DNA of 64,000 nt from Rhodoferax sp. (lineage in GTDB: Bacteria > Pseudomonadota > Gammaproteobacteria > Burkholderiales > Burkholderiaceae_C): NCBI RefSeq assembly GCF_028689295.1, contig NZ_JAQTWL010000011.1, positions 53,580-117,579 on the forward strand, given 5' to 3'. Positions 8,974 through 59,631 of the stretch are shown here, piece by piece. The translations under genes and the position numbers were made by a program. The notes under the pieces are model-generated. The model saw only the letters and a list, made by a program, of their open reading frames with translations, made no database searches and was not told where the DNA came from. Position 1 is the first letter of the stretch; each line of letters begins with the position of its first letter.

Positions 8974-9699
8974 ATGCCATCACTTCACAACCCCAGTCAA
9001 AATCACCTGCTGGCCGCCTTGCCGCCAAAAGACTTTGAACTACTGGCAGCGCACCTGGAACTGGTGCCGCTGCCCCTGGGCCAAATGCTGTACGACCCCG
9101 GCACCCAGATGCGCCACGCTTTCTTTCCCACCACCTCCATCGTGTCGCTGCACTATGTGACCGAAACCGGGGCGTCAGCCGAGACCGCTGGCGTGGGCAA
9201 CGAAGGTGTGGTGGGCATTTCATTGTTCATGGGCGGCGACACCACGTCCAGCTCGGCCGTGGTGCAAACTGCTGGCCAGGCTTACAGGCTGGATCGCCAT
9301 GTGTTGAAAGAGGCGTTTGACCAAGGCGGTGCGCTGCAGCGCCTGCTGCTGCGCTACACCCAGGCCCTGATGACGCAAATGGCGCAAACCGCCGCCTGCA
9401 ACCGCCACCATTCGGTCGAGCAGCAACTGTGCCGATGGCTGCTGCTGACGCAAGACCGCCTGCCCGAGCGCGAGCTGGTCATGACACAGGAACTGGTGGC
9501 CAGCATGCTGGGCGTGCGCCGCGAAAGCGTGACCGACGCGGCCGGACACCTGCAAATCCTGGGATACATCCGCTACCGCCGCGGCCACATTGGCGTGCTC
9601 GACCGTGCCGGGCTGGAGTCACACGCCTGCGAATGCTACGGCGTGGTCAAAAAGGAAATCAACCGCCTGCTCAGTGACGTGCGCCACCGGCAAGTCTGA
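8974..9699 (+). CDS. Crp/Fnr-family transcriptional regulator
   Basis: 241-residue cytoplasmic regulator. An N-terminal cyclic-nucleotide-binding-like beta-roll (residues about 20-140, with LGQMLYDPGTQMRHAFFPTTSIVSL) is joined to a C-terminal winged helix. The recognition segment is TQELVASMLGVRRESVTDAAGHLQ. No FNR-type N-terminal cysteine cluster is present, and the cAMP-contact residues of Crp (RSE in FGE..L..) are not conserved. The ligand is therefore unknown, as in many stand-alone members of this group. It starts 22 bp after the receiver-PAS gene and could be co-transcribed. Two REP-like hairpins follow its stop. Confidence 0.88.
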   Translation: MPSLHNPSQNHLLAALPPKDFELLAAHLELVPLPLGQMLYDPGTQMRHAFFPTTSIVSLHYVTETGASAETAGVGNEGVVGISLFMGGDTTSSSAVVQTAGQAYRLDRHVLKEAFDQGGALQRLLLRYTQALMTQMAQTAACNRHHSVEQQLCRWLLLTQDRLPERELVMTQELVASMLGVRRESVTDAAGHLQILGYIRYRRGHIGVLDRAGLESHACECYGVVKKEINRLLSDVRHRQV

Positions 9700-9701
9700 T
9701 T

Positions 9702-9747
9702 AGTTGGGGTCAGAGCACGTCGCTTCGCGAGTGGTCTGACCCGCAAG
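9702..9747. repeat. REP-like palindromic repeat, copy 1
   Basis: 46-bp unit beginning AGTTGGGGTCAGAG. Outer arms GGGTCAGA and TCTGACCC enclose a second stem (CAC/GTG, then TCGC-TTC-GCGA), so the unit can fold almost end to end as a hairpin. A copy differing at one base lies 56 bp downstream. The pair sits between convergent genes and could serve as a bidirectional terminator. The sequence type matches the GGGGTCAGA palindromes I know from beta-proteobacterial intergenic regions. Confidence 0.8.
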
Positions 9748-9757
9748 ACCTCTAATC

Positions 9758-9803
9758 AGTTGGGGTCAGAGCACGTCGCTTCGCGAGTGGTCTGACCCAC
9801 AAG
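9758..9803. repeat. REP-like palindromic repeat, copy 2
   Basis: Second 46-bp copy of the palindromic unit, in the same orientation and differing at one position (CCCAC instead of CCCGC). The ten bases between the copies are unrelated. It ends 3 bp before the stop codon of the minus-strand glycine-zipper gene. Confidence 0.8.
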
Positions 9804-35430: not shown

Positions 35431-35509
35431 AAGCGGGGTGTTCATTGCGCCGACGGGATCAGGTCTGACGTGTTCAGGCCTGATCAACCCGCGCACTGGT
35501 TCACGAAGT

Positions 35510-35536
35510 GTAAGAAACAGCTTTACGCGACGACTA
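35510..35536 (+). promoter_or_regulatory. Predicted ECF sigma promoter of the sigma/anti-sigma operon
   Basis: GTAAGAA, then exactly 14 bases, then CGACTA, about 35 bp before the sigma-factor ATG. The same two boxes with the same spacing precede the cysteine-repeat cytochrome (48217-48243) and the bufferin precursor (56983-57009). The bipartite form (GTAA-type -35, CGWC-type -10) is the usual shape of ECF promoters, so the sigma factor probably activates itself. Confidence 0.7.
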
Positions 35537-35572
35537 CTTTGCATCGTGTTCAGGAATCCGGCATCTCAGCCC

Positions 35573-36226
35573 ATGTCGAATCTTCAAAGCTACCAAAGTG
35601 TGTCCATGAATCACCAGACCGAATCCATTGCGCTGCCAGCCTCTGCCACGCACCCTGATGCCTCGGGTGCCTCTTGGGTCAGACTGCGGCAACGCCTGTT
35701 GCGCCACGCCCGCATGATGGTGTTTGAGCCTGCGCAAGCTGAAGACCTGGTGCAGGAATCGCTGGTGGCGGTGCTGGAAAAGCCCGAAGCCCATCGCGGC
35801 GAGGCCTCCCTCATGACATGGGCCGTGGCCATCCTCAAGCACAAAATTGCCGACTGGTACCGCTCGCCACATCAGCGCCGACGCGCTTGGGTTGAGATCG
35901 ATGAAAATGAAGTTGATGTCGATTCAACCGAAGACCTTTATGATGAGCAGGGCAGCTACAAGGAAGCCGTGCCGTCCTGGCAGCAACCTGAAAGGCAGGA
36001 GACCCAGCGCCAGATGATGTCCGTCATGGAGGGATGTCTGAAGCGCCTGCCTTCCCAGGCCGGCAGGGTCTTCATGATGCGCGAGTGGCTCGGATTCGAA
36101 ACGTCGGAAATTTGTGAGCGCCTGAGCCTGAGCGCTGAAAATTGCCGCATGATCCTGCATCGGGCTCGCATGGGCCTGCGCCAGTGCATGACCACCCAAG
36201 GACACACTACCGGGAGCCTCCAATGA
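35573..36226 (+). CDS. ECF RNA polymerase sigma factor
   Basis: 217-residue sigma-70 family factor with only regions 2 and 4. Region 2 spans WVRLRQRLLRHARMMVFEPAQAEDLVQESLVAVLEKPEAHRGEASLMTWAVAILKHKIADWYR, and region 4 is GCLKRLPSQAGRVFMMREWLGFETSEICERLSLSAENCRMILHRAR, a complete helix-turn-helix. A long acidic linker (IDENEVDVDSTEDLYDEQG) joins them. It resembles the Neisseria-type RpoE paired with a small zinc anti-sigma. The ATG at MSNLQSYQ is chosen, since the track start lies upstream of the predicted promoter. The stop overlaps the anti-sigma start (ATGA). Two operons in this window carry the same promoter motif. Confidence 0.92.
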   Translation: MSNLQSYQSVSMNHQTESIALPASATHPDASGASWVRLRQRLLRHARMMVFEPAQAEDLVQESLVAVLEKPEAHRGEASLMTWAVAILKHKIADWYRSPHQRRRAWVEIDENEVDVDSTEDLYDEQGSYKEAVPSWQQPERQETQRQMMSVMEGCLKRLPSQAGRVFMMREWLGFETSEICERLSLSAENCRMILHRARMGLRQCMTTQGHTTGSLQ

Positions 36227-36450
36227 CACTTCTTCATTCATGCCAAAAAGCGGCTGAACTGATTTCCCAGTCACTGGATGAACCCCTTGACATGGTTGAC
36301 AAGCTGCGTTTGCGTGTGCATCTGAGCATGTGCGGCAATTGCCGCAACGTGCAGGAGCAACTCAACCTGATCCACAAAATGGGCTCGCAAATTGGTACGC
36401 TCGATTTGTGTGATGACTCCGGGGAAGCACCATTTCCGCAAGGAAATTGA
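36223..36450 (+). CDS. Zinc-type anti-sigma factor (zf-HC2, MseR-like)
   Basis: 75-residue soluble protein beginning MTLLHSCQKAAELISQSLDE with H33-x3-C37-x2-C40 (RVHLSMCGNC), the ZAS/zf-HC2 signature; an earlier Cys at position 7 may be the fourth ligand. It lacks a transmembrane helix, so it should be a cytoplasmic anti-sigma that releases its partner on thiol oxidation or metal exchange. It is translationally coupled to the sigma gene by ATGA with GGGAG upstream. It ends 82 bp before the selenoneine operon; co-transcription with senA is possible but not shown. Confidence 0.88.
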   Translation: MTLLHSCQKAAELISQSLDEPLDMVDKLRLRVHLSMCGNCRNVQEQLNLIHKMGSQIGTLDLCDDSGEAPFPQGN

Positions 36451-42316: not shown

Positions 42317-43228
42317 TCATGGGTGTGCCAGGATCACGGCAAACCAGTTGTCCGGATCGGTCCAGACTTGGGTTTGCGACAGTCCCGCACGCTTGAGTAG
42401 TTCAACGAAATCCGCTACCTGGTACTTGTAGCTGTTCTCGGTATGGATGCGCTCACCTTGGGCAAAGCTGCGCCCGCCCCCTGGCCAGTGCACATCGGTG
42501 GCAGTGCTGGCTTGAAGGTGCATCTCAATACGCGACGCTACCGGGTTAAAAAAGGCCAGGTGCTGCCACTGCGTTACATCAAAATCACTGCCGACGACCC
42601 GATTGACGTGCTTGAGCACATTCAGGTTGAAAGCGGCGGTGACCCCTTGCGCGTCGTCGTAGGCAGCGTGCAGAACCGCCATGTCTTTGACCAAGTCAAC
42701 GCCGATCAGCAATGCGCCGTCGTCGGCAAGCAAACCGCGCAAACGGGTGACTAAGGCTAGGGCCTGCGGTGGATCAAAGTTGCCGATGGACGAGCCGGGG
42801 TAAAACACCAGTCGCTGCGCCATTGGCAAATCCACGGGTAGTGTGATTGCACGCGTCAGGTCTGCCACCACAGCGCTGACTTCAACACCCGGCAAAGCAG
42901 CGCGCAAACCAGCCACGGCTTGATGCAGAAAATCTTCCGAGATATCCAGCGCCACAAAAAGTCTGGGGTGAATCAGCTCACACAACGCACGCGCTTTTTC
43001 GCAATTGCCCGCACCCGGCTCGATCACCGTCACACCCGCACCCATGCGGCAGGCAATGTCTGAAGCATGCGTGGTCATGATCTGGCGCTCGACTCGCGTC
43101 GGGTAATACTCTGGCAGCAGGGTGATCTGCTCAAACAGCGCAGAGCCTGCTGCATCGTAAAAATACTTGGGTGAAATGCTGGCCTGTGGCAGCAGCAGGC
43201 CCTGCAAAATTTCGGCTTGTGGTGTCAT
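42317..43228 (-). CDS. egtD: L-histidine N-alpha-methyltransferase EgtD
   Basis: 303-residue SAM-dependent enzyme that trimethylates histidine to hercynine, the common precursor for ergothioneine and selenoneine. It shows PKYFYDAAGSALFEQITLLPEYYPTRVE, the SAM site VTVIEPGAGNCEKA, FYPGSSIGNFDPPQA, and the histidine-pocket region AYDDAQGVTAAFNLNVLKHVNR and IHTENSYKYQ. The ATG overlaps the stop of the upstream glutathione reductase-like gene (ATGA). Its position between gor and egtB shows a three-gene operon. Since senA is convergent on the other side, this gene plausibly feeds both pathways. Confidence 0.95.
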   Translation of the reverse strand: MTPQAEILQGLLLPQASISPKYFYDAAGSALFEQITLLPEYYPTRVERQIMTTHASDIACRMGAGVTVIEPGAGNCEKARALCELIHPRLFVALDISEDFLHQAVAGLRAALPGVEVSAVVADLTRAITLPVDLPMAQRLVFYPGSSIGNFDPPQALALVTRLRGLLADDGALLIGVDLVKDMAVLHAAYDDAQGVTAAFNLNVLKHVNRVVGSDFDVTQWQHLAFFNPVASRIEMHLQASTATDVHWPGGGRSFAQGERIHTENSYKYQVADFVELLKRAGLSQTQVWTDPDNWFAVILAHP

Positions 43229-44622
43229 GCGCTTGCTTGGTCCGATCGGCTGCGGGTGGTTTTGTCTTTCAGGGTCACAAACTCCTCCGCCGAAGTCGGG
43301 TGCAGCGCCACGGTGGCGTCAAAGTCGGCTTTGGTGGCACCCATGCGGATAGCCACCGCCAGGCTCTGGATGATTTCGGCCGCGTCGTCGCCGACCATGT
43401 GCGCGCCCAGCACGCGCTGGCTGGCGCTGTCCACGATCAATTTGACCAGCGTGCGCTCTTTGCCACCGGCCAGGCCACGGCCCAGGGCGCGAAAATTGGT
43501 ACGGTAGATGTCGATTTGCGGCACTGCTTGGAGCGCCTGCGCTTCGGTCAGGCCCACCGTGCCAATCTGCGGCTGGCTGAACACGGCGGATGGCACCGTA
43601 GTCAGGTCGGCGGTCGTGGGCGCGGTGCCAAACAGCGTCTGCGCCAGCGCGGCACCTTCGCGAATCGCCACGGGCGTGAGCGCAATGCGGTTGGTGACAT
43701 CGCCCACGGCGTGGATGCTGGGCACGTTGCTGTGGCCATAGGCATCGACGATGATGCCCCCGGTTTTGTCCAACGCCACCCCCGCCTCAGCCAAGCCCAT
43801 GCCCTGCGTGTTGGGCAAGCGGCCGGTGGCGTAGAGCACGGTGTCAAAACTGTGTTGGGTTGCTGTGCCCTCGCTTCCGCTACGCAAACCCACTTGCAGA
43901 CTGCCGTCGCCTGATTTTTCGATCTGGGTCACCTCGCTGTGCAGCAGAATGCGCACGCCGTTTTGTGCCATCTCGTCGTGCAGGTGGGCGCGCAGGTCGT
44001 CGTCAAAACCGCGCAGAATCTGCTCGCCGCGGTAGGCTAGTGTCACTTCACTTCCCAGCCCGTGGAAGATACCGGCAAATTCGACCGCGATGTAGCCGCC
44101 GCCCACAATCAGCACCCGCCTCGGTTGCTCGGGCAGGTTGAACACTTCGTTGGACGTGATGGCATGTTCGATGCCGGGCAACGCGGGCAAAAACGGCGTG
44201 CCGCCCGTGGCCACCAGGATGTGCTCGGTGCGAATACGCTGGTCATTCACTTCCACGGTGTGGGCATCGATCACGCGGGCGGCACCCTGCAGCACCTGCA
44301 CGCCCGAGTTCAGCAGGTTTTTTTCGTACATGGCACTGAGCTTGCCGATCTCGGCGTCCATGGCCGCGATCAGTTTGGGCCACGAAAAAGTGGCGGGCGG
44401 CACGCTCCAGCCAAAGCCCGCGGCGTCGCGAAATTCCTGCGCGTAGTGCGACGCGTAAACCAGCAGCTTTTTGGGCACGCAGCCGCGGATGACGCAGGTG
44501 CCGCCATAACGAAAGCTTTCGGCAATCGTCACGTGCGCGCCCAGGCTGGCCGCTATGCGCGCGGCGCGCACGCCGCCTGAGCCGCCACCGATGACAAAGA
44601 GCTGGGTGTCGAATGAAGTCAT
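43225..44622 (-). CDS. gor: Glutathione-disulfide reductase-like flavoenzyme
   Basis: 465-residue FAD/NADPH disulfide reductase. The FAD site is LFVIGGGSGGVRAARIAASLG, the redox-active disulfide GGTCVIRGCVPKKLLVYAS, the NADPH site VLIVGGGYIAVEFAGIFHGLG and the C-terminal active-site His VALHPTSAEEF, all intact. It matches glutathione reductase, which keeps reduced glutathione. Being first in an operon with egtD and egtB, it could also reduce disulfides or diselenides of ergothioneine and selenoneine, which is inference. I use MTSFDTQLF with AGGAACC upstream instead of the track start 25 codons earlier. Confidence 0.93.
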   Translation of the reverse strand: MTSFDTQLFVIGGGSGGVRAARIAASLGAHVTIAESFRYGGTCVIRGCVPKKLLVYASHYAQEFRDAAGFGWSVPPATFSWPKLIAAMDAEIGKLSAMYEKNLLNSGVQVLQGAARVIDAHTVEVNDQRIRTEHILVATGGTPFLPALPGIEHAITSNEVFNLPEQPRRVLIVGGGYIAVEFAGIFHGLGSEVTLAYRGEQILRGFDDDLRAHLHDEMAQNGVRILLHSEVTQIEKSGDGSLQVGLRSGSEGTATQHSFDTVLYATGRLPNTQGMGLAEAGVALDKTGGIIVDAYGHSNVPSIHAVGDVTNRIALTPVAIREGAALAQTLFGTAPTTADLTTVPSAVFSQPQIGTVGLTEAQALQAVPQIDIYRTNFRALGRGLAGGKERTLVKLIVDSASQRVLGAHMVGDDAAEIIQSLAVAIRMGATKADFDATVALHPTSAEEFVTLKDKTTRSRSDQASA

Positions 44623-44641
44623 GAAGGTTCCTGTTGCTTGT

Positions 44642-45598
44642 TCAATGCTGTGCCGCGTGAAATACCGCCGTGTCCGGATGAAACGTGTACCAGGCAAACC
44701 AATACGCTACCACGCCCGGCAATTTCCGGCCGTCCGCCGCATGCACCGTGGCTCGCGATGCGGCACGGTCAAAACGGATTGTCAAGCGGGTGCCAGCGAG
44801 TTGGTCGGTCACGAGGCCATTGGTTTTGCCCAGTTCGACAAACGGATAAGCCTTGGTGGCAGTGCCAATCTGAACCCCGAGCACGCGCTCCTTGGGATGA
44901 AAACCGGCCGAGCGGAAGGCCAGTGGAAACATGATCTGGGTGCTGCTGTCATAGCCCGCGTAGGGGTCGCGATCGTAAGAGCGGCTGTTGCCGGTGTCGG
45001 TTGACAGCACCTGGGTTGTTGCATGGCTGGCGCGCCAGTCGCTCCAGTTGGTGTGCGTGACCGGCAACGGGGCCAGGCGCTGGCCTTTCAAGGGGCCGCT
45101 GATCGCCTGGGCCAACAGTTGGGACCACAGCGAGCCGGTTTCCCGGTCGTACAGCAGCACGTCGTTGTTGTAGAGCAGGCCTGACACGCCAAAGCTGAGC
45201 ACCCGGCCTTTGACGCGCCGCTCGAACACCATGCCGGTGCCGCACAAGGGGCAATAGGTGATGGTGATGGGCTCAGCGCCGAACTGGTCGTTCACCACTT
45301 CATGCCAGTTCAGGATGCGCAGCGGATAGGCCCGCGCCACCCCCTGATGCGCCAGGCCCAAAACCATGTCGTTGGCCTGCAAAAAGCCGGCCTCTTTCGC
45401 GCTGATGAAGCGCGGCCGGTCGATGGCCGGGATGCCGTCCTTGGCCGGCCCGCCCGAGACGATCTGGTCCGGCGCGATCAGTGGATCTTTCAAGTCGACG
45501 CCGTTCATGACCTGCGCATGCAACGTGCTGCTGACCAGCCAGGCAGACAGCATGAAAAAATGGCAAAGGAGGCACCACTTGGCCAATGCGGGTTTCAT
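44642..45598 (-). CDS. DUF3179 domain-containing exported protein
   Basis: 318-residue protein with a signal peptide (MKPALAKWCLLCHFFMLSAWLVSSTLHAQ). The DUF3179 domain has YPLRILNWHEVVNDQFG, ITYCPLCGTGMVFERRVKGRVLSFGVSGLLYNNDVLLYDRETGSLW and DPYAGYDSS. The paired cysteines of YCPLCG may bind metal or form a disulfide. Function is unknown; members are periplasmic or extracytoplasmic. The start is the ATG giving the signal peptide, with AAGGCAGAAG upstream; the 56-residue N-terminal extension is rejected. It follows the patatin-like gene by 13 bp and precedes gor by 19 bp, so these may share a transcript. Confidence 0.88.
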   Translation of the reverse strand: MKPALAKWCLLCHFFMLSAWLVSSTLHAQVMNGVDLKDPLIAPDQIVSGGPAKDGIPAIDRPRFISAKEAGFLQANDMVLGLAHQGVARAYPLRILNWHEVVNDQFGAEPITITYCPLCGTGMVFERRVKGRVLSFGVSGLLYNNDVLLYDRETGSLWSQLLAQAISGPLKGQRLAPLPVTHTNWSDWRASHATTQVLSTDTGNSRSYDRDPYAGYDSSTQIMFPLAFRSAGFHPKERVLGVQIGTATKAYPFVELGKTNGLVTDQLAGTRLTIRFDRAASRATVHAADGRKLPGVVAYWFAWYTFHPDTAVFHAAQH

Positions 45599-47257: not shown

Positions 47258-47361
47258 CTGGCGTTCCTCGACGGTCAATGGATTGGCGGGAAATTCCCGC
47301 GGCATTCCATAGTTTGTCGGGCTTGGCCGCCAATGCTTACAGTGCTGGCGCAATGGGCGCG

Positions 47362-48189
47362 CTACTGCGCCTGTGTGCCCTTGAGCCATTCACCAGGGGC
47401 GCAACCCAATTTGCGCTGGAAGGCGCGGGTGAGGGCGCTTGGACTGCCATACCCCACTTCACCAGCGACATGCTTGAGCGCCAGCCCGCGTTGCAGCAAG
47501 CCCTGCGCCAGCAGGACGCGCCAGCTCGCCAGGTAGTCGGCTGGGGTTTCGCCGGTGACCTGATGGAAATGCACTGCAAAACGGGCGCGTGACATGCCTG
47601 CCAGAGCGGCCATGTCCTCCAGTCGCCACGCCTGTTCCGGTTTCAGGTGCATGGCATTGAGCGCCTTGGCCAGGCGGGCATCGGCCAAGCCCGCGAGCGC
47701 GCCGCCGCGCGTCAGGTGTTGCGCAATACAGTAGCGCAGCAGCTGAATCATCAGCACCTCACACAAGCGGTCGAGCACCGCCTGACGGCCGTCCTGCTCG
47801 GCAAAGGCCTCGTCGAACATCAGCCCAAGCAAGGCTTCCACGCCCGGCAACCGCCGCAATTCCACCATAACAACGGATGGCAGCGAGGCGGTGATGGGGT
47901 TGCTGCTGCCACCCCCGAACTGCACCGTGCCGCACACCACGTCGGCACCGCTGCGCTCGTCAGCGATCAGCCGGTGGGTGTCGGGGCGCGGCAAAAATAA
48001 CAGCGCCGGCTCAGTGATGGTGAAGCTCCCGGGGCGCACCCCCATGACTAGCACCGGACCGCGCCGGATCAGGTGCAGGTGGCCGCGCACGCTGTCTTGC
48101 TGGAAATCGTGGATGCCGCAGATGTTGCCGGTATAAAACACACCGGCGTGCAACGAGAAGCGGTTGAGTAGGGTGGTGAGTTGGTCCAT
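47362..48189 (-). CDS. AraC-family regulator with cupin-like sensor domain (paralogue 1)
   Basis: 275 residues. The N-terminal AraC_binding_2/cupin-type domain (FSLHAGVFYTGNICGIHDF, GHLHLIRRGPVLVMGV, LLFLPRPDTHRLIADE) contains a Cys and several His that may bind a ligand or metal. The C-terminal two helix-turn-helix units cover DMAALAGMSRARFAVHFHQVTGETPADYLASWR and HVAGEVGYGSPSALTRAFQRKLGCAPGEWLKG. It is divergent from the cysteine-repeat cytochrome gene. It is closely similar end to end to the AraC gene at 55.0 kb, which is divergent from the YHS gene, pointing to duplication of a regulator within one functional group. Confidence 0.9.
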   Translation of the reverse strand: MDQLTTLLNRFSLHAGVFYTGNICGIHDFQQDSVRGHLHLIRRGPVLVMGVRPGSFTITEPALLFLPRPDTHRLIADERSGADVVCGTVQFGGGSSNPITASLPSVVMVELRRLPGVEALLGLMFDEAFAEQDGRQAVLDRLCEVLMIQLLRYCIAQHLTRGGALAGLADARLAKALNAMHLKPEQAWRLEDMAALAGMSRARFAVHFHQVTGETPADYLASWRVLLAQGLLQRGLALKHVAGEVGYGSPSALTRAFQRKLGCAPGEWLKGTQAQ

Positions 48190-48216
48190 CGCAAATAAGA
48201 ATTTTTATATCACAGT

Positions 48217-48243
48217 GTAAGAAGTTGATGCCTACCACGTCTA
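48217..48243 (+). promoter_or_regulatory. Predicted ECF sigma promoter of the cysteine-repeat cytochrome operon
   Basis: GTAAGAA, 14 bases, CGTCTA, 67 bp before the cytochrome ATG. It matches the motif upstream of the sigma-factor gene in both boxes and spacing. The GTGTAAGAAGTTGATG part (48215-48230) also resembles a sequence in the promoter of the second AraC gene, so the site may overlap a regulator-binding site. Confidence 0.7.
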
Positions 48244-48309
48244 AGCAAACAGGGAAGCATCACTTTGCGCCCCCCCCATTGCCACCACTTACCAACTGAG
48301 GAGTCGTCC

Positions 48310-49023
48310 ATGAACGCACAACCTTCCGCCATCCGCTCTGCCATTCTGGCTTCTGTTTTTGGTATGGCCTTCGGCGCTCCTGCCGCCTTTGCCCAAAGCC
48401 CCTGCGCGCCGCGCAACCCATGTGCGCCACGCAAGATGAACCCATGTGCAGCCAAAAATCCATGCGCCGCGAAAAACCCGTGTGCTGCCAAGAACCCTTG
48501 CGCAGCCAGTGGCAAAGTGGATGTCAAGCTGGTGACTCGTCCAGCCGGCACGCAGCTAGCCAAAGGCAATTCGGCCGAGCTCATCGCCGAGGGTAAAAAA
48601 CTGTTTTCCGACACCAAGCTCAGCACCAACGGGCTGTCGTGCAATTCATGCCACTTCAATGGCAACTCTTACCTCAACACGTTCGCCAAGCCCTATCCGC
48701 ACTTTGTGCAAATGGCCGATGACCGTGGCGGCATGAAAAAAATCGCCCTTGATGAAATGGTGCAATTCTGCATGGTGGTGCCGATGGCCGCCAAACCGCT
48801 GGCCTGGGATTCGCGTGAACTCGCTGCCTTGACCGCTTACACCGCCGAAGTGCAGAAAACCTTCAAACCCAAGAGCGGTGCCGCCGCTGCCAATCCGTGT
48901 GCTGCCAAGAACCCTTGCACTGCCAAGAACCCTTGCACTGCCAAGAACCCTTGCACTGCCAAGAACCCTTGCGCGGCAAAAAATCCGTGTGCTGCCAAAA
49001 ATCCCTGCGCCGCCAAGAAGTAA
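48310..49023 (+). CDS. Secreted c-type cytochrome flanked by NPCAAK cysteine repeats
   Basis: 237-residue exported protein. The signal peptide ends AAFA-Q. Six cysteine repeats follow (SPCAPR, NPCAPRKM, four NPCAA-type). A single-haem cytochrome c domain has CNSCH in GLSCNSCHFNGNSYL, a likely axial Met in FCMVVPM and the WDSRELAALTAYTAEVQ end. Seven more repeats (NPCAAK/NPCTAK) close the chain. Sixteen Cys in the mature protein, 13 in repeats spaced C-x5-C, suggest metal (copper?) or thiol chemistry, with the haem as electron carrier. GGAG precedes the ATG; the track start lies before the signal peptide. It heads a four-gene operon under a predicted ECF promoter. Confidence 0.88.
   Translation: MNAQPSAIRSAILASVFGMAFGAPAAFAQSPCAPRNPCAPRKMNPCAAKNPCAAKNPCAAKNPCAASGKVDVKLVTRPAGTQLAKGNSAELIAEGKKLFSDTKLSTNGLSCNSCHFNGNSYLNTFAKPYPHFVQMADDRGGMKKIALDEMVQFCMVVPMAAKPLAWDSRELAALTAYTAEVQKTFKPKSGAAAANPCAAKNPCTAKNPCTAKNPCTAKNPCAAKNPCAAKNPCAAKK
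48397..48510 (+). repeat. In-frame cysteine repeat block, N-terminal
   Basis: Six imperfect 18-bp units coding SPCAPR, NPCAPR(KM) and four NPCAAK/NPCAAS. Codon usage varies between units (CCATGT, CCATGC, CCGTGT, CCTTGC), so the protein pattern is conserved while the DNA has drifted, which argues for selection on the peptide. Confidence 0.85.
48892..49017 (+). repeat. In-frame cysteine repeat block, C-terminal
   Basis: Seven 18-bp units coding NPC(A/T)AK. Three central units are nearly identical DNA (AACCCTTGCACTGCCAAG), indicating recent slippage or duplication; the outer units differ at synonymous sites. Repeat number may vary between strains. Confidence 0.9.
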
Positions 49024-49041
49024 AGCGGCCAGTGCCCGACG

Positions 49042-49740
49042 ATGGATGATCTGCACGACCTGACAACCGACGAGCTTCTCGCCATGCGCGCAGCGGGCCA
49101 GGACGTCATGGCGTGTTACCGCGTGCTGGACAAGGGCGGACTCAACGTCGTCGGTGAGATGCTGCGCGGCCAGGGCGAGTTCATCGAGCTGAACCACTTC
49201 CCCGACGACGACGTGTTCGACCGTGACAGCCAGTCGCAGTATTACTACCACGCGCACCGCGGGCTCGACGGTGAACACGGCCACTTTCATACCTTTGTGC
49301 GCCAGCCCGGCATGCCTGAGGGCATGGTGCCCGTGGTCTGCCAGGCCAGCGAGCCCTGGCCGCAAGGGACTGACGCGCTTTGCCACCTGATTGCCATCTC
49401 GATGAACGCCTATGGTTTCCCCACGGGCTTGTTCACCACCAACCGCTGGGTGACCGACGAGGCCTGGTACAGCGCCGCTGACGCCGCCCGGTTGCTGGCG
49501 CGCTTTCGTATCGATCACGCCGCGCCGTCATGGCCGGTGAACCGCTGGATCAGCGCCATGTTCGTGCTGTTTCGCCCGCAAATGGCAAGTCTGCTGATGC
49601 AGCGCGACGTGACCGTGGCGAACTGGGCTGCGCGGCATCCGGCGGCCGACGTGTTCGAAGACCGCGCGCTCGACATCACCAGCGCAATGCCCATTTCAGT
49701 CGAACAGCAGATCAGTCGTGTCGAGGCTCTGCTGGGCTGA
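49042..49740 (+). CDS. DUF6969-type conserved hypothetical protein, His-rich core
   Basis: 232 residues without signal peptide. The core ELNHFPDDDVFDRDSQSQYYYHAHRGLDGEHGHFHTF is dense in His and Asp and looks like a metal-binding site. It is followed by LCHLIAISMNAYGFPTGLFTTNRWVTDEAWY. I associate this pattern with the DUF6969 family, from memory only. It begins 18 bp after the cysteine-repeat cytochrome and is clearly in its operon, so it may mature the cytochrome repeats or handle the same metal. No catalytic function can be stated. Confidence 0.8.
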   Translation: MDDLHDLTTDELLAMRAAGQDVMACYRVLDKGGLNVVGEMLRGQGEFIELNHFPDDDVFDRDSQSQYYYHAHRGLDGEHGHFHTFVRQPGMPEGMVPVVCQASEPWPQGTDALCHLIAISMNAYGFPTGLFTTNRWVTDEAWYSAADAARLLARFRIDHAAPSWPVNRWISAMFVLFRPQMASLLMQRDVTVANWAARHPAADVFEDRALDITSAMPISVEQQISRVEALLG

Positions 49741-49786
49741 ATCAGCATTTCATCCCGTTAACGTCTGCAAGGAAAGGAATTTCATC

Positions 49787-50269
49787 ATGTCTTACCTGAA
49801 TATTTCACAAGTTCGCGCATGGCTTTTGCCCATGGTGCTGCTAGCTGCCAGTGCCGCTTACGCGCAAGCGCCGACCGTGCCCGGCACGCAGACGCTGGCC
49901 AGCAAACATGATTTCAAAACGCTGGTTGCGCGCACGGAAGCAGCCATCGGTGCGCAAAAAATGGGTTTGGTGGCATCGGCCAGCGCCAGCGCGGGTGCTG
50001 CCGGGCGCGGTATCACCATTCCTGGCAACACGGTGCTGATGGTGTTTCGCAACGACTTCGCCGTGCGCATGTTGCAGGCCAGCGTGCCCGCCGGTATCGA
50101 GGCGCCGATCCGGCTTTATGTGACCGAAAACGCCGATGGCACGGCCAGCCTGAGCTACCGCACTCCCAGCGCGGTGTTTGCCCCCTACAAGTCAGAGCAG
50201 CTCGATGCGATGGCGGTTGAGCTCGACCCCATCTTTGAGCGCATCGTGCGCGATGCCACCGGCGGTTAG
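49787..50269 (+). CDS. Exported DUF302 domain protein
   Basis: 160 residues. The signal peptide ends in AAYA-Q. The DUF302 alpha/beta domain covers SKHDFKTLVARTEAAIGAQKMGLVASASASAGAAGRGITIPGNTVLMVFRN and RLYVTENADGTASLSYRTPSAVFAPYKSEQLDAMAVELDPIFERIV. DUF302 proteins bind small ligands or metals in several settings; one in this context has no known role. AAGGAAAGGAA precedes the ATG MSYLNISQ. It is 46 bp downstream of the DUF6969 gene and overlaps the start of the YeeE/YedE gene, so it belongs to the same operon. Confidence 0.87.
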   Translation: MSYLNISQVRAWLLPMVLLAASAAYAQAPTVPGTQTLASKHDFKTLVARTEAAIGAQKMGLVASASASAGAAGRGITIPGNTVLMVFRNDFAVRMLQASVPAGIEAPIRLYVTENADGTASLSYRTPSAVFAPYKSEQLDAMAVELDPIFERIVRDATGG

Positions 50270-51461
50270 TCAAAGTCGGGTGCTGCCAGCCTGGCCCGCC
50301 GGACGCCAGCCTATGCCACTGGTGGCGGGCCTTGCCACCTTGCTGCTGGTAGCTGTGCGCCTGGGTGCTGATGGCTGGCGACAGGTTGCCCTTTGGCTGA
50401 CCGGTCTGGTTCTGGGCGTGGCGTTGTACCACGCATCGTTCGGTTTTGCCAACGCCTACCGGCGCATGCTGCTGGCGCGCGACATGCGTGGTGTGCAGGC
50501 GCAATTGCTGTTGCTGGCATTGACCACGCTGTGCTTTGCGCCGGTTTTTGCCAATGGTACAGCCTTCGGGCAGGTGTTGGGCGGCGCCTGGGCGCCGGTG
50601 GGCGTGTCGGTGGCAGTGGGCGCGTTCATGTTCGGCATTGGCATGCAGATCGCCGGCGGTTGTGGCTCGGGCACGCTGTACACCGCGGGCGGCGGCAGCT
50701 TGCGCATGATGCTGGTGCTGGTGAGCGCCTGTGCGGGTTCGTTCTGGGCCAGCCTGCACATGGGCTGGTGGCAACAACTGCCCTCAAAAGATGCCATCGT
50801 GCTGGCCGACCTGCTGGGCTGGCGCATGGCTTTGGCGCTGCAATTGGGTATCTTCGGTTTGCTGTCATTTTTACTGTGGCGGCTGGCGCGGCCTGTCGCG
50901 CCAGTACCAAGGCCAGCGACTAACGAATCGACAACCAGCGCCGTGCTGGCGCGGGTATTTTCTGGCCCCTGGCCGGTCATGGTCGCTGCCGTGGTGCTCG
51001 CACTCGGGAACGTGAGCACGTTGCTGCTGGCGGGTCATCCGTGGTCAATCACCTGGGGTTTCACGCTCTGGGGGGCCAAGGTGGCCGGGTGGCTGGGCTG
51101 GCGGCCAGCGCCCGACGGCTTCTGGCAGGGTGACTTTCAAAGCGGCGCGCTGGCTGGCGGTGTGCTCGATGACACCACGTCGATGATGGACCTGGCCATC
51201 ATGCTGGGTGCTTTGTGTGCCGCGTCGCTGGCTGGTCGGTTCGCACCGCGCTGGGACTTTCCTTGGCGCTCGCTGCTGGCCGCGCTGCTCGGCGGTCTGC
51301 TGCTGGGTTACGGCTCGCGCATTGCCTATGGCTGCAATATTGGCGCGTTTGTGTCGGGGGTGGCCTCGGGCAGCCTGCATGGCTGGTTGTGGATTACCGC
51401 GGCCTTGCCGGGTACCTGGTTGGGCATTCGCCTGCGCCGGCGATTTGGCATGGCGGATTGA
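50253..51461 (+). CDS. YeeE/YedE (TsuA-like) sulfur-compound transporter
   Basis: About 402 residues, with nine or ten transmembrane segments. The two inverted-repeat signature loops are FGIGMQIAGGCGSGTLYTAGGG and GYGSRIAYGCNIGAFVSGVASGSLHGW, each with a conserved Cys (GGCGSG and YGCNIG). This is the thiosulfate-uptake family; a subgroup (YedE/FdhT) is linked to selenium metabolism. It could bring thiosulfate or another S/Se species into the cell. The start is uncertain: the ATG at 50253 overlaps the DUF302 gene by 17 bp, and MPLVAGL at 50313 is an alternative. Last gene of the cytochrome operon. Confidence 0.88.
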   Translation: MPPAVSQSRVLPAWPAGRQPMPLVAGLATLLLVAVRLGADGWRQVALWLTGLVLGVALYHASFGFANAYRRMLLARDMRGVQAQLLLLALTTLCFAPVFANGTAFGQVLGGAWAPVGVSVAVGAFMFGIGMQIAGGCGSGTLYTAGGGSLRMMLVLVSACAGSFWASLHMGWWQQLPSKDAIVLADLLGWRMALALQLGIFGLLSFLLWRLARPVAPVPRPATNESTTSAVLARVFSGPWPVMVAAVVLALGNVSTLLLAGHPWSITWGFTLWGAKVAGWLGWRPAPDGFWQGDFQSGALAGGVLDDTTSMMDLAIMLGALCAASLAGRFAPRWDFPWRSLLAALLGGLLLGYGSRIAYGCNIGAFVSGVASGSLHGWLWITAALPGTWLGIRLRRRFGMAD

Positions 51462-55028: not shown

Positions 55029-55871
55029 TCAATCCGGATTCTGGCGTGCCATTTTTTCACCATTGAGCCACTGCGTTGGCGAACAACCTAGCTTTCGAAT
55101 AAACGCACGTGTGAGTGCATTGGCACTGCCGTAGCCGACATTGTCAGCCACGTGTTTGAGCTGTAAGCCTTGCTTGAGCAGCCGCTGCGCTGCCATGACT
55201 CGCCAAGTCGCCATATAGTTCGCCGGAGTTTCGCCGGTGATGGTACGGAACCGCACGACAAAGCGCGCACGTGACATACCTGCCAATGCGGCCAAACTCA
55301 TCAGATTGCGCTTGCTGGCGGGGTCTTCATGAATGGCTGCAATGGCTTTGGCAAGTCGCGCATCAGCCAGCCCCGCCAATGTGCCGCCCTGAGTTAAACC
55401 CTGGTCAATGCAATGGCGCAACAGCCGGATCATCAGCACCTCACACAGACGATCAAGCACTGCCTGACGGCCGTCATTGTTGGCAAAGGCTTCATCAAAC
55501 ATCAACCCCAACAGTTCGTGCGCACCTGGCAAAGCAGATAGTTCAATCATCACAAGATCGGGCAAGGAGTCGGCTACCGGATTTCTGCGCCCCCCGCCAA
55601 ACTGAACCGTCGCACACACGATGTCCGCGCCAGTGCGTTCATCCGCTATCAACCGGTGAGTATGAGGACGTGGCAAAAACAACAAGGTGGGTTCTATGAC
55701 ATCTAAAACTTGCTGTTTCACACCAATGATCCGCACCGGACCGCGCCTGATGAGATGAATATGTCCATGCAGGCTATCTTGCGCAAAGTCATGAATGCCA
55801 CAGATGTTGCCAGTGTAAAAAACACTCGCGTGCAGCGAAAAGTGCTCAAGTAATGCGGAGAGTCTGTCCAT
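55029..55871 (-). CDS. AraC-family regulator with cupin-like sensor domain (paralogue 2)
   Basis: 280 residues, closely similar throughout to the AraC gene at 47.4 kb: FSLHASVFYTGNICGIHDF, GHIHLIRRGPVRIIGV, LLFLPRPHTHRLIADE in the sensor, and two helix-turn-helix units ending in HVADNVGYGSANALTRAFIRKLGCSPTQWLNG. It is divergent from the YHS-domain gene. Its 13-bp gap from the end of the LysR gene gives convergent transcription. The upstream sequence shared with the paralogue's promoter (GTGTAAGAGTTGATG, minus strand) suggests shared regulation. Ligand unknown; a metal or copper link is plausible but unproven. Confidence 0.9.
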   Translation of the reverse strand: MDRLSALLEHFSLHASVFYTGNICGIHDFAQDSLHGHIHLIRRGPVRIIGVKQQVLDVIEPTLLFLPRPHTHRLIADERTGADIVCATVQFGGGRRNPVADSLPDLVMIELSALPGAHELLGLMFDEAFANNDGRQAVLDRLCEVLMIRLLRHCIDQGLTQGGTLAGLADARLAKAIAAIHEDPASKRNLMSLAALAGMSRARFVVRFRTITGETPANYMATWRVMAAQRLLKQGLQLKHVADNVGYGSANALTRAFIRKLGCSPTQWLNGEKMARQNPD

Positions 55872-56022: not shown

Positions 56023-56529
56023 ATGTCTAATCAGTTTCGTGCGTCACGTCGTAATTTTGTTGCAGCCAGCGCGCTGATGACAATCGCATCATTTGCGCTC
56101 CCCGAGCTTGCTCTTGCTTATGACGAAAATTCAACAAGCGCCTTGAACGTTGATGCAAATGGCATCGCGTTAAAGGGGTATGACCCGGTGTCGTACTTCT
56201 CGCCAAGTGGTCCGGCTGCGGGTAAAGCGGAAATTTCTGCAAAACACGGCGGTGCGACCTACCAGTTCGCCAACTTGCAGAACCGTGACACATTCGCTGC
56301 CAACCCTGCCAAATACATTCCTGCCTATGGCGGCTTTTGCGCCATGGGGGTCGCACTGGAACAAAAGCTCGATGTCAATCCGCAACTTTGGCGTGTGGTT
56401 GACGGCAAGTTGTATCTCAACGTGCACAAAGAAGCGCAAACGCGCTGGCTCGAAGACGTGAAGGGCAACTTGGCGAAGTCCGACAAGAACTGGCTTCGCC
56501 TCAAGGACAAGGCTCCAAAAACGCTTTGA
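56023..56529 (+). CDS. Exported YHS-domain protein
   Basis: 168 residues. The N-terminus SRRNFVAASALMTIASFALPELALA looks like a Tat-type signal (S-R-R-N-F). The YHS domain follows: GIALKGYDPVSYFSPSGPAAGKAEISAKHGGATYQFANLQNRDTFAANPAKYIPAYGGFCAMGVA. YHS domains in copper pumps and similar exported proteins are thought to bind metal. The cysteine in FCAMG is the usual conserved position. It is divergent from AraC paralogue 2 and is followed by a glutaredoxin gene 60 bp downstream, so a metal or redox stress role is likely. Confidence 0.9.
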   Translation: MSNQFRASRRNFVAASALMTIASFALPELALAYDENSTSALNVDANGIALKGYDPVSYFSPSGPAAGKAEISAKHGGATYQFANLQNRDTFAANPAKYIPAYGGFCAMGVALEQKLDVNPQLWRVVDGKLYLNVHKEAQTRWLEDVKGNLAKSDKNWLRLKDKAPKTL

Positions 56530-56588: not shown

Positions 56589-56849
56589 ATGATGATCAAT
56601 GTCACGATGTACAGCTCAGCGAGCTGTGGCTATTGCCAAAGTGCCGAGCACTTGCTCAGACGCAAAGGCGTTACCAAGATCGACAAAATTCTGGTCGATC
56701 AGGAGCCGGGGGCACGCGAAGTCATGATGCAAAAAACCGGCCAGCGTACTGTGCCGCAAATTTACGTCGGTGATTTTTACGTGGGTGGTTTTGATGATTT
56801 GACGACGCTGGACAAAGCAGGCAAGCTTGACGCATTGCTGTCCCAATAG
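56589..56849 (+). CDS. grxC: Glutaredoxin 3-like protein
   Basis: 86-residue glutaredoxin with the active site SSASC13-GY-C16 (CGYC; GrxC usually CPYC), the cis-Pro region QRTVPQIYVGDFYVGGFDDL and a closing LDKAGKLDALL helix. Dithiol type, reduced by glutathione. It is preceded by AAGGAAAAAA. It follows the YHS gene on the same strand. The replacement of Pro by Gly in the active site would lower the cysteine reactivity slightly and is a mild oddity. Another grxC may exist elsewhere in the genome. Confidence 0.92.
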   Translation: MMINVTMYSSASCGYCQSAEHLLRRKGVTKIDKILVDQEPGAREVMMQKTGQRTVPQIYVGDFYVGGFDDLTTLDKAGKLDALLSQ

Positions 56850-56982
56850 CACTTGTACGGCAGTGCAAATCAAAAACTTGCCCATGAATGCCCACGCCTA
56901 CCACTAGCCCATTGCCCAGTCAAAATTGAAGAGAACGCAGATGACATTTTCATGATGCCAAATTTTTTTTTATTTACACGCC

Positions 56983-57009
56983 GTAAGAAACCCGCTGCTG
57001 CTTCGACCA
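56983..57009 (+). promoter_or_regulatory. Predicted ECF sigma promoter of the bufferin operon
   Basis: GTAAGAA, 14 bases, CGACCA, 86 bp before the bufA ATG. It is the third occurrence of the shared motif and differs from the sigma-gene copy only at the fifth base of the -10 box. The 245-bp gap it lies in contains no supportable gene; the 56853-57083 ORF overlaps the motif and has no family likeness. Confidence 0.65.
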
Positions 57010-57094
57010 ATCCAGCAGCAGTGACCATCAAGTGGTCATTTGCTGAAAAGCGATCACTTTTTTATCCACCATTCATGCATTAAAGGACATCCTC

Positions 57095-57418
57095 ATGACA
57101 ACCGCATCCCAATCTCCTGTGACCCGCCGTACCGCCTCTGCCGCTGGCCTGGCCCTGGCCATGAGTGCCGCTTTGGGCATTGCCGCCGCGCCCACGGCTG
57201 CACAGGCTGCTGACACCGAAAAGTGCTTTGGCGTGGCGCTCAAAGGCAAAAACGACTGCAAAGCCGGTGCTGGCACCACGTGCGCTGGCACTTCCAAAGT
57301 GGACTACCAGGGCAACGCCTGGTCGATGGTGCCCAAGGGCACGTGCGAAAAAACCGTGTCCAAGACCTCACCCACCGGCCATGGCCAGCTCAAAGAGTTC
57401 AAGGAAGTCAAGGCCTGA
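57095..57418 (+). CDS. bufA1: Bufferin-type RiPP precursor (DUF2282)
   Basis: 107-residue precursor. A long signal peptide ends near TAAQA-AD, and four Cys at 44, 55, 63 and 84 lie in [21 protein letters not shown]...[16 protein letters not shown]. This is the DUF2282/bufferin 1 pattern: a secreted peptide whose cysteines are changed to thiooxazole-type groups by the DUF692 enzyme to bind copper. The PKGTCEK near the C-terminus is characteristic. AAAGGACATCC precedes the ATG. It heads bufA-bufB-bufC-doxX and has the predicted ECF promoter. Naming by analogy with characterised Caulobacter bufferins; modification is not visible here. Confidence 0.87.
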
Positions 57419-57447: not shown

Positions 57448-58344
57448 ATGGCCGCAAGCGTCATGTTGCCCCTGCTGACCCCGGGTGCAGCTGCCTCCAC
57501 TCTGCCCGCAAGGGCCGGGGTGGGGCTCAAGCCCGAGCATTTTCAGGACATTCTGGCCACCGAGCCCGACATCGGCTTCTTCGAAGTCCATGCCGAAAAT
57601 TACATGGTGGCCGGCGGGCCGTTTCACCATTACCTGACCCGTATCCGCGAGCGCTACCCGCTCTCGATCCACGGCGTCGGCCTGTCCATTGGCGCCGATG
57701 CGCCGCTGGATACCGACCATCTGGATGCGCTGGCGATGCTGCTCAAGCGTTACCAGCCGCAATCCTTTTCCGAGCACCTGGCCTGGTCCACCCATGGCAA
57801 GGCGTTTCTGAACGACCTGCTGCCGTTGCCGTACAACACGGCCAGCTTGCAGCGGGTGTGCGACCACATCGACCAGGTGCAGGTGCACCTGCAGCGGCGC
57901 ATGTTGCTGGAAAATCCGGCCACTTATGTCGAGTTTGCGGCGTCCACCTGGGAAGAGGGCGCCTTTTTGACCGAGGTGGTGCGCCGCACCGGTTGCGGTT
58001 TGCTGCTGGACGTGAACAACGTGCATGTGTGCAGCATCAACCACCAGCGTGATGCGCACGCCGCCATCCGTGCCATGCCGCTGCACGCGGTGGGCGAGAT
58101 TCACCTGGCCGGCTTTGCCGATCAAACCGATGGCAACGGCGATCCGCTGCTGATCGACAGCCACGGCGCGCCAGTGGCGCAGGCGGTGTGGGCGCTTTAT
58201 GACTTCACGCTGGGACTGACCGGCGCCCAGCCCACCTTGCTTGAGCGTGACAACGACATCCCGGTCTGGCCGGTGCTGCTCTCGGAAGCCGGTTTGGCCG
58301 AGCAGCGTTTGCAAATGCTGCTGGCTGAAGAGGTCATGGCATGA
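57448..58344 (+). CDS. bufB: DUF692 multinuclear iron oxidase, bufferin maturase
   Basis: 298-residue TIM-barrel enzyme of the MbnB/TglH-like DUF692 group, which uses an iron cluster to modify cysteines of a precursor peptide. Likely ligands lie in [50 protein letters not shown] and GEIHLAGF. The start MAASVMLPL has GGAG 9 nt upstream. It is 29 bp from bufA and overlaps bufC by ATGA. It acts on BufA before export. The longer track start lies inside bufA and is rejected. Confidence 0.93.
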
Positions 58345-59126
58345 GCTACCAGACCACCTTCGCGCAAGCCTTGCTGAACCCGGAGTTGCCTTGCCCCGGC
58401 TGCTTGACCACCTGTAACGGCTCGGACCCCGCCACGCGTTTTGCGGTCTATCGCAACAATGTCACGGTGTCGCTGATCGACGCGCTGGCTGACACCTTTC
58501 CTGTCGTGCAAGAAATGGTGGGTGAAGATTTCTTTCGCGCCATGGCCAAGGTGTTTGTGCAGGCCCAGCCGCCGCGTTCGCGCCTCATGGCGTATTACGG
58601 GGACCAGTTCGCTGATTTTGTCAGCAGCTTCCCACCTGCCGCGTTGGTGCCATATCTGGCCGATGTCGCACGCCTGGAAATGGCCCGGGTTCAGGCTTAC
58701 CACGCGGCGGATGTGCCACCCATCAACACCGACATCTTGCACCATGCGCTGGCCGAGCCGGAGCAACTCACGGTGTTGAGCCTGGTGTTGCACCCGTCGG
58801 TGCAGGTGCTGTCGTCGCCCTATGCCATTGATTCGCTGTGGGCGGCGCATCAGGGGGCGCTGTGCATCAGCACGGTCGATCCCGACGTGCCCCAGGCGGT
58901 GCTGGTCTTCAGGCACGGGCTCGACGTGGACACGCTGGCATTGGACGCTGCCACGGCGCTGTTTGTCACCCGCCTGCAAGACGGTGTGAGCCTGCTGGTG
59001 GCCACGGGCGAAGCCAGCACGATGGATGCCGAGTTCGATTTGACCCACACCCTGGGCTTGTTGCTGCGTTGGCAGCTCATCACCCACACCACCTTCGGAG
59101 CCCCACCTCATGAACACACGCACTGA
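58341..59126 (+). CDS. bufC: DUF2063 RiPP partner protein
   Basis: 261-residue DUF2063 protein, the constant partner of DUF692 enzymes, thought to help recognise the precursor. The N-terminal domain is [61 protein letters not shown]. The C-terminal half is less conserved. The ATG overlaps the bufB stop and the stop region overlaps the doxX start by 17 bp, so translation is coupled. Two Cys pairs near the N-terminus (PCPGC and TTC) may bind metal. Cytoplasmic. Confidence 0.9.
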
Positions 59127-59631
59127 ACCCTTGAGCGCCACATCAGCGCGTGGTTTGATCCCCAATTTGATGCAGCGCTTTGTCGCCGTCTGCACGCGCA
59201 TTCCCCATACGCTGGTGGCGTTGTTGGCACGCTTCTCGATTGCAGCGGTATTCTGGAAGTCCGGTGAGACCAAAATCCAGGGTTTTGCCATCGACATCGT
59301 CAACCAGGAATTCACGCTGGGCTGGCCGCGCCTGTCGGACTCGGTGGTGGATTTGTTCCGCGAAGAATACCAGCTGCCCATGATCCCGCCGGAAATTGCC
59401 GCCACAATGGCCGCCTTTGCCGAGCATTTTTTACCGCTGCTGCTCTTGCTCGGGCTGGCCACCCGCCTGTCTGCGCTGGCGCTGCTGGGCATGACGCTGA
59501 CCATCCAGTTGTTCGTTTATCCCGACGCCTATCCCACCCACGGCACCTGGGCCGCCGTGCTGTTGCTGCTGATGGTGAACGGCGCGGGCAAACTGTCGCT
59601 GGACCACTGGATCGCGCGGCGCTACACCTGA
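59110..59631 (+). CDS. DoxX-family membrane protein of the bufferin operon
   Basis: 173-residue inner-membrane protein of the DoxX/terminal-oxidase-associated family. Four helices can be drawn: VALLARFSIAAVFWKSGETK (with the conserved F-x-x-S/A-G-x-x-K), MAAFAEHFLPLLLLLGLATRLSALALLGMTLTIQLFVYP, and WAAVLLLLMVNGAGKLSLDHW. DoxX genes end most DUF2282-DUF692-DUF2063 operons; role unknown, perhaps quinone- or thiol-linked electron transfer. It overlaps bufC by 17 bp. The track start is kept. Confidence 0.88.
   Translation: MNTRTEPLSATSARGLIPNLMQRFVAVCTRIPHTLVALLARFSIAAVFWKSGETKIQGFAIDIVNQEFTLGWPRLSDSVVDLFREEYQLPMIPPEIAATMAAFAEHFLPLLLLLGLATRLSALALLGMTLTIQLFVYPDAYPTHGTWAAVLLLLMVNGAGKLSLDHWIARRYT

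Follow-up and report, generated by a model that had tools for sequence, protein, structure and literature searches.

Organization of the locus

We analyzed a 64,000-nucleotide stretch of DNA from Rhodoferax sp. (the window), in which an operon encodes an exported cytochrome flanked by cysteine-repeat arms together with a predicted cytosolic metalloenzyme of the DUF6969 family. The first gene (48310–49023, plus strand, as for the whole operon) specifies a 237-residue monohaem cytochrome (CNSCH at residues 111–115, Cys154) with repeats of an Asn-Pro-Cys (NPC) motif on both sides of the haem domain. It is followed by the genes for DUF6969 (49042–49740; PF22308, Pfam E 9.5e-83), an exported DUF302 protein (49787–50269; PF03625), and a sulfur-compound transporter of the YeeE/YedE family (Sulf_transp, PF04143, E 6e-62), which starts at 50253 or 50313 and ends at 51461. 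The divergent gene on the minus strand (47362–48189) encodes an AraC regulator that bears a Cupin_6 domain; it is RclR-like, with a score far below the RclR cut-off. Upstream of the cytochrome gene lies a promoter of the extracytoplasmic function (ECF) type, TGTAAG-N16-CGTCTAA (48216–48244, plus strand; letters TGTAAGAAGTTGATGCCTACCACGTCTAA).

The gene order and coordinates, the ECF promoter, and the divergent cupin-AraC gene had been reported in a first-pass annotation of this DNA and were all recovered here. That annotation had overlooked the SoxA/TsdA-type, putatively cysteine-ligated class of the haem domain. It had also missed a bufferin operon inside the window, along with the ECF/anti-sigma pair that is the likely controller. 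The system is real and widespread, and the literature searched contains no description of it: we found no paper on NPCAAK, NPCAAKNPC, or DUF6969, in agreement with the earlier claim of novelty. The new results are the regulon and the pairing of DUF6969 with Cys-repeat proteins.

The cytochrome begins with a signal sequence, which by inspection should be cleaved after AFA-28; six NPC/SPC repeats, the one-haem domain, and seven further NPC repeats follow. Its 16 cysteines comprise 6 in the N-terminal arm, 7 in the C-terminal arm, the haem cysteines Cys111 and Cys114, and Cys154. The thirteen repeat cysteines counted previously are thus present, and their C-x5-C spacing runs throughout except for one x7 gap. 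The repeats form tandem arrays at the DNA level too. Synonymous variation under a constant peptide, as proposed earlier, holds for the NPCAAK units (2.7 synonymous versus 0.86 non-synonymous differences per pair in the C-terminal arm) but not for the first units of the N-terminal arm, which differ in peptide, or for three NPCTAK units of the C-terminal arm, whose identical DNA indicates a recent duplication. Antisense open reading frames (ORFs) across the repeats (e.g. 48646–49518, minus strand) were rejected as mechanical. In the AlphaFold model, the predicted local distance difference test score (pLDDT) of the core is mostly >90; the arms are predicted to be disordered (pLDDT about 50 or below).

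A SoxA/TsdA-type haem domain

The haem domain belongs to the Pfam family SoxA-TsdA_cyt-c (PF21342; E 1.8e-9, 37.9 bits versus a cut-off of 27). Its best matches among solved structures, obtained with Foldseek, are TsdA (4wqd, E 4.5e-4, probability 1.00) and then SoxAX. Cys154, which is part of the motif LDEMVQFC, is invariant in 67/67 aligned proteins; in the sequence alignment it falls opposite Cys96 of TsdA (numbering counted from the printed chain). Cys96 coordinates the catalytic haem of TsdA and also forms an S-thiosulfonate intermediate; for SoxA, it has been suggested that the carrier cysteine of SoxYZ resolves the adduct (PMC4423706). Cys154 is therefore a putative haem ligand of the SoxA/TsdA type. 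The first-pass annotation had suggested a metal or reactive-sulfur buffering system; this class of hypothesis is reasonable, and the type of haem domain tilts it toward sulfur chemistry.

Conservation and gene neighborhood

When the core alignment was scanned against one genome per species, 160 stretches were confirmed as encoding relatives. The best 80 of these 160 are mostly from Betaproteobacteria (Rhodoferax, Gallionella, Sideroxydans, Accumulibacter, Sulfuritalea, and Nitrosomonas), but also from Gammaproteobacteria (Marinobacter, Stutzerimonas, and Pseudomonas) and Alphaproteobacteria (Rhodospirillales), and include a few records labeled Rokubacteria or Tectomicrobia. The Rhodoferax genome itself has one cytochrome copy, and orthologues are found in a minority of genomes of the genus. 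A weak second match in the same genome (L002) was rejected because it reads another tandem repeat out of frame and contains an internal stop. Plasmid matches are few, among them one partial, repeat-less relative in Cupriavidus.

We compared 83 cytochrome loci, counting neighbors within six genes. At least two PC repeats occur on both sides of the haem domain in 75/83 loci (N-terminal arm in 79, C-terminal arm in 77), a recurrence that argues against chance as the origin of the armed architecture. Only one locus (L020) has no arms; there, a separate exported KCAPKCAPK peptide is encoded beside a diverged DUF6969. The neighbors include DUF6969 (39 loci), a separate exported NPC peptide (28), ECF genes (24), YeeE (23), thioredoxin (20, of which 19 with CcdA), and DUF302 (16). 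In Marinobacter sp. F4216 and Stutzerimonas chloritidismutans AW-1, the gene after the cytochrome is DUF6969. Operon partners, whose absence from relatives would have counted against the earlier proposal, thus recur. The bufferin-type enzyme MNIO lies near the cytochrome in just 6/83 loci, and at most of these a BufA of its own is close by. A compact operon of YeeE, an NPC or SPC peptide, DUF6969, and rhodanese is present in three genomes of one genus, which belongs to the same taxonomic order as the window, and in one further genome; in the three, a BigR-like ArsR repressor follows. A mercuric reductase (above cut-off) lies near one member (L034), and merR-like genes lie near a few.

Other proteins accompany parts of the family. 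In 28 loci, a multihaem cytochrome (C554/ExtKL-like; e.g. L041 5672–6952) is encoded close to the Cys-armed one, and in 15 loci (L064, L041, L042, and others) an exported ∼156-residue protein ending in GEYLYSCPLNTTPDYKL. The latter appears cupredoxin-like by eye and has no Pfam match. A diverged group from small genomes (L145, L147–L150, and L174) carries NPC cytochromes that are armed only N-terminally, with NPCNPC or NPCAAP repeats; several are accompanied by a separate NPC peptide, and DUF6969 was not found in those genomes.

A promoter shared with a bufferin operon

The promoter consensus TGTAAG-N16/17-CGWCYAA was scored out of 13. Only one site of the window, that at 48216–48244, matches exactly; the genome has two such sites in all. 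Scores of at least 10 were obtained before 47/83 cytochrome genes, as compared with 4/83 for shuffled sequences, and the promoter also precedes 18/33 NPC peptides, 19/21 thioredoxin genes, and the CGAKC-repeat peptides encoded elsewhere in the same Rhodoferax genome. In the 64-kb window, four sites score at least 12/13, versus 0.17 expected. Besides that of the cytochrome (48216), they are located upstream of bufA (56982) and of an ECF sigma gene (35509), as well as at 47341 on the minus strand. The last of these (47341–47313) lies ∼56 bases before a possible start (∼47257) of a gene for a small membrane protein that ends at 46769 and for which no Pfam family was matched.

The ECF sigma factor (35606–36226, plus strand; TIGR02943 family) is a candidate regulator, and the match in front of its gene (35509–35537, plus strand) predicts autoregulation. 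The adjacent gene (36223–36450, plus strand) encodes a 75-residue zinc-binding anti-sigma factor (zf-HC2) with the sequence C7-x25-H33-x3-C37-x2-C40, in agreement with the zinc-binding anti-sigma (ZAS) motif C-x23-26-H-x3-C-x2-C. The bufferin operon, 8 kb from the cytochrome, is complete. Behind its promoter match (56982–57010, plus strand, 12/13) follow, on the same strand, the bufferin precursor BufA (57095–57418; DUF2282), the MNIO enzyme BufB (57448–58344; PF05114), which is the sole copy in the genome, the partner protein BufC (58341–59126; DUF2063), and a DoxX membrane protein (59110–59631). Upstream of bufA are genes for a second AraC/Cupin_6 regulator (55029–55871, minus strand; 69% identity to the one at 47362), a YHS-like protein (56023–56529), and a glutaredoxin (56589–56849, plus strand), a homologue of which stands directly 5′ of the cytochrome gene in sister loci. 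In five sister loci (L022, L025–L027, and L029), only a few genes separate the bufferin and cytochrome operons, and in Gallionella and Sideroxydans the cytochrome has related ECF and anti-sigma genes next to it.

Published ECF13/ZAS systems (Neisseria SigE-MseR and Haemophilus RpoE2-HrsE) likewise combine a sigma factor with a small zinc anti-sigma factor and control a DoxX cluster, which in Haemophilus is induced by hypochlorous acid (HOCl) (PMC7907618, PMC3240639). The genes of that cluster correspond to the bufferin operon. The ECF/anti-sigma pair of the window is the likely controller of both the cytochrome and the bufferin operons; in contrast to the published systems, the predicted regulon would then also include a Cys-armed cytochrome operon. 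Elsewhere in the genome, contig C5 carries SigF/NrsF and another ECF/anti-sigma pair. SigF/NrsF was considered as the controller and rejected, because the SigF motif, GTAACC-N16-CGAA (PMC3511200), differs from the window promoter and because the ECF/ZAS pair itself bears the better-matching promoter.

DUF6969 and Cys-repeat proteins

We sampled DUF6969 independently of NPC repeats in 399 genomes of the phylum. DUF6969 is present in 20/399 genomes and a three-repeat NPC DNA pattern in 13/399. The two overlap in 10 genomes spanning seven families, versus 0.65 expected (P 2e-12, a value that overstates independence because the genomes are related). In an automatic scan, an exported Cys-rich ORF lies within 1.5 kb of 15/22 DUF6969 loci, as compared with 10/92 control segments (P 1.3e-7), a contrast that is conservative because the control set includes a few genuine Cys-repeat peptides. 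Including the cases beyond the automatic scan, which were read by eye, 19/20 DUF6969 genomes encode an exported or anchored Cys-repeat protein. Some pairs are unlinked within their genome (L162, L164–L166), and the repeat motif varies among partners (NPCAAK, NPCGPKK, KPCAAK, CGAKC, and AEGC). The partner of DUF6969 is thus the Cys-repeat peptide in general.

A further DUF6969 in the Rhodoferax genome (33% identical) is flanked by two CGAKC peptides on one side and by thioredoxin/CcdA on the other. The surrounding cluster on contig C5 (L131 1–8000) comprises SigF/NrsF, the second ECF/zf-HC2 pair, an HD-GYP protein, a SelD-type flavin adenine dinucleotide oxidoreductase, the two exported CGAKC-repeat peptides, the second DUF6969, thioredoxin, and CcdA. 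In another locus near DUF6969 (L110 213–1358), a cytochrome that is P460-like by eye carries a long NPCAPANPCAA repeat arm and represents a second type of haem protein bearing NPC repeats.

The first-pass annotation had described the His/Asp-rich DUF6969 as apparently metal-binding. The protein has no signal peptide, a confident globular model (pLDDT 92.5), and an invariant set of His, Asp, and Glu residues (His-52, Asp-57, Asp-60, His-70, His-72, Glu-78, His-81, and His-83, with Arg-73 also kept, in the first 33 members). With these features, DUF6969 looks like a cytosolic metalloenzyme rather than a metal sponge. Compared with the PDB, its model gave no fold match (best E 0.39).

Such a pattern is what we would expect of an enzyme that modifies or loads Cys-repeat proteins. 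The strong linkage may reflect a pairing of precursor and dedicated enzyme as in ribosomally synthesized and post-translationally modified peptides (RiPPs), and DUF6969 may modify the repeat cysteines in the cytosol before export, so that the modified residues would bind metal or sulfur. Co-occurrence even of unlinked genes, the constancy of the enzyme while the repeats vary, and the invariant residues on a fold unmatched in the PDB speak for this putative maturation. On the other side, several NPC cytochromes occur in genomes without DUF6969, no leader-binding element was identified, and no chemistry was predicted. We regard such maturation as possible but on the unlikely side, an estimate on a separate axis because it is compatible with either cargo. 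That DUF6969 founds a new, MNIO-independent class of peptide-maturing metalloenzymes, with the NPC cytochrome among its largest substrates, seems doubtful to us. If true, a haem protein would carry an array of modified cysteines as a sulfur or metal buffer.

A proposed envelope thiol-stress system

Considering the architecture and its conservation, the haem family with its conserved cysteine, the promoter in common, the linkage of the genes, and their co-occurrence, we favor, with less than even confidence, an ECF-controlled periplasmic thiol system whose Cys arms would hold sulfane sulfur or a thiophilic metal and whose Cys-ligated haem would act as the redox head. Thiophilic or oxidative stress would cause the zinc anti-sigma factor to free the ECF sigma factor, which would switch on the cytochrome and bufferin operons. 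The exported cytochrome would be a carrier fused to a redox head, with flexible NPC arms presenting 13 thiols that capture thiophilic cargo, with sulfane sulfur (persulfide) as the most likely candidate. The haem, presumably His/Cys-ligated as in SoxA/TsdA, would accept electrons upon conjugation of sulfur to the arm thiols or its release from them. In other genomes, the thioredoxin/CcdA pair may maintain the arms in the reduced state. Transfer of sulfur to the cytosol would fall to YeeE and, elsewhere, to rhodanese; DUF6969 would be a cytosolic partner of the Cys-repeat proteins.

Sulfur as cargo is suggested by the haem family, YeeE (23/83 loci), DUF302, and thioredoxin/CcdA, and above all by the compact operons of YeeE, Cys peptide, DUF6969, and rhodanese, with their BigR-like repressor in three genomes. 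SoxT proteins, which are YeeE-like, act as sulfur importers (PMC11582611). A flexible Cys carrier, a YeeE-type transporter, a thioredoxin/CcdA reductant, and a SoxA-like haem also recall the logic of SoxY(Z), SoxT, and SoxVW. Here, however, carrier and haem form one chain with many cysteines; other sox genes were not seen in the clusters compared, with no genome-wide search made. If the arms carry sulfane sulfur, the cytochrome would perform SoxA/SoxY-like chemistry in one self-contained protein, hosted by iron-oxidizing, nitrifying, and freshwater bacteria.

Several observations weigh against this proposal. In TsdA, thiosulfate is coordinated by the mature residues Arg82, Arg92, and Ser100 (PMC4423706); Arg92 is replaced by Met150 and Ser100 by Pro158 in the cytochrome family, both invariant, and the position of Arg82 is unconserved (alignments, offset of 27 applied). 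Furthermore, the cytochrome has a single CxxCH motif and no second haem domain. Although domain family, CxxCH, the catalytic-type cysteine, and the fold of the TsdA haem-1 domain are shared, the protein is therefore a relative of TsdA and not a thiosulfate dehydrogenase, and it differs from SoxA/TsdA also in its Cys-repeat arms, operon, and regulation. Thioredoxin/CcdA adjoins the cytochrome in only part of the family, and in the Rhodoferax genome it sits on another contig with a different Cys-peptide/DUF6969 operon. Finally, the regulation shared with bufferins and the mer genes near some members suit a metal role at least equally well.

The main alternative is a periplasmic sponge for thiophilic metals, in which reduced NPC arms would bind Cu(I) (or Hg, Au, or Ag) beside the bufferins, with the haem as an electron outlet or sensor. 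Bufferins (DUF2282/MNIO) are copper-binding RiPPs that chelate the metal (PMC12452194), and, like the NPC proteins, they are exported, contain cysteines, share the ECF promoter type, and are neighbors in the window and in sister genomes. Metal cargo would also fit the mercuric reductase and the few merR-like genes. The NPC proteins nevertheless differ from bufferins in that no DUF2282 domain was matched in the cytochrome by Pfam, MNIO is rarely adjacent, and the partner is DUF6969. C-x5-C with proline departs from the classic thiolate motifs for metals, metal-resistance genes occur at few loci, and the YeeE/rhodanese/BigR operons indicate sulfur. We consider the sponge rather unlikely; as cargo of the favored thiol system, sulfur is slightly ahead of metal, and both share the same anatomy.

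A sacrificial antioxidant, whose thiols would be oxidized under HOCl or disulfide stress and re-reduced by thioredoxin/CcdA, is improbable. It would be the cysteine counterpart of methionine-rich hypochlorite scavengers of the MrpX type, which are periplasmic, sacrificial, rich in sulfur amino acids, and under ECF control. The ZAS motif with its HOCl-responsive relatives, the RclR-like domain of the AraC protein, and the thioredoxin/CcdA pair (19–20/83 loci) are consistent with this role, but the RclR score is far under cut-off, and the Cys-ligated haem, YeeE, rhodanese, and DUF6969 would all be unneeded; of these, the haem domain and DUF6969 also set the cytochrome apart from MrpX, as does cysteine in place of methionine. 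An ordinary electron-transfer cytochrome with tails that are low-complexity drift or plain disulfide linkers would explain the predicted disorder and variable copy number of the repeats, but is already disfavored and very improbable, given that the arms are kept (75/83) in Alpha-, Beta-, and Gammaproteobacteria alike, that separate NPC peptides lie near 28 loci, and that the armless cytochrome has a KCAPKCAPK peptide beside it.

The analysis provides a first functional context for two protein families without one, DUF6969 and the NPC-repeat proteins, and ties them to the bufferin stress regulon. It suggests that bufferins are not the only exported cysteine arrays that bacteria deploy against thiophilic stress, but belong to a whole set of them. 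If DUF6969 modifies cysteines, it would be a new enzyme class.

Additional features of the window

Beyond the AraC gene, the minus strand encodes a glutathione reductase (43225–44697, above the NCBIfam cut-off). It is adjoined by a DUF3179 protein, a neighbor that recurs in several sister loci. At 9695–9803, the window contains a two-copy tandem repeat of 56 bases with a 94% match.

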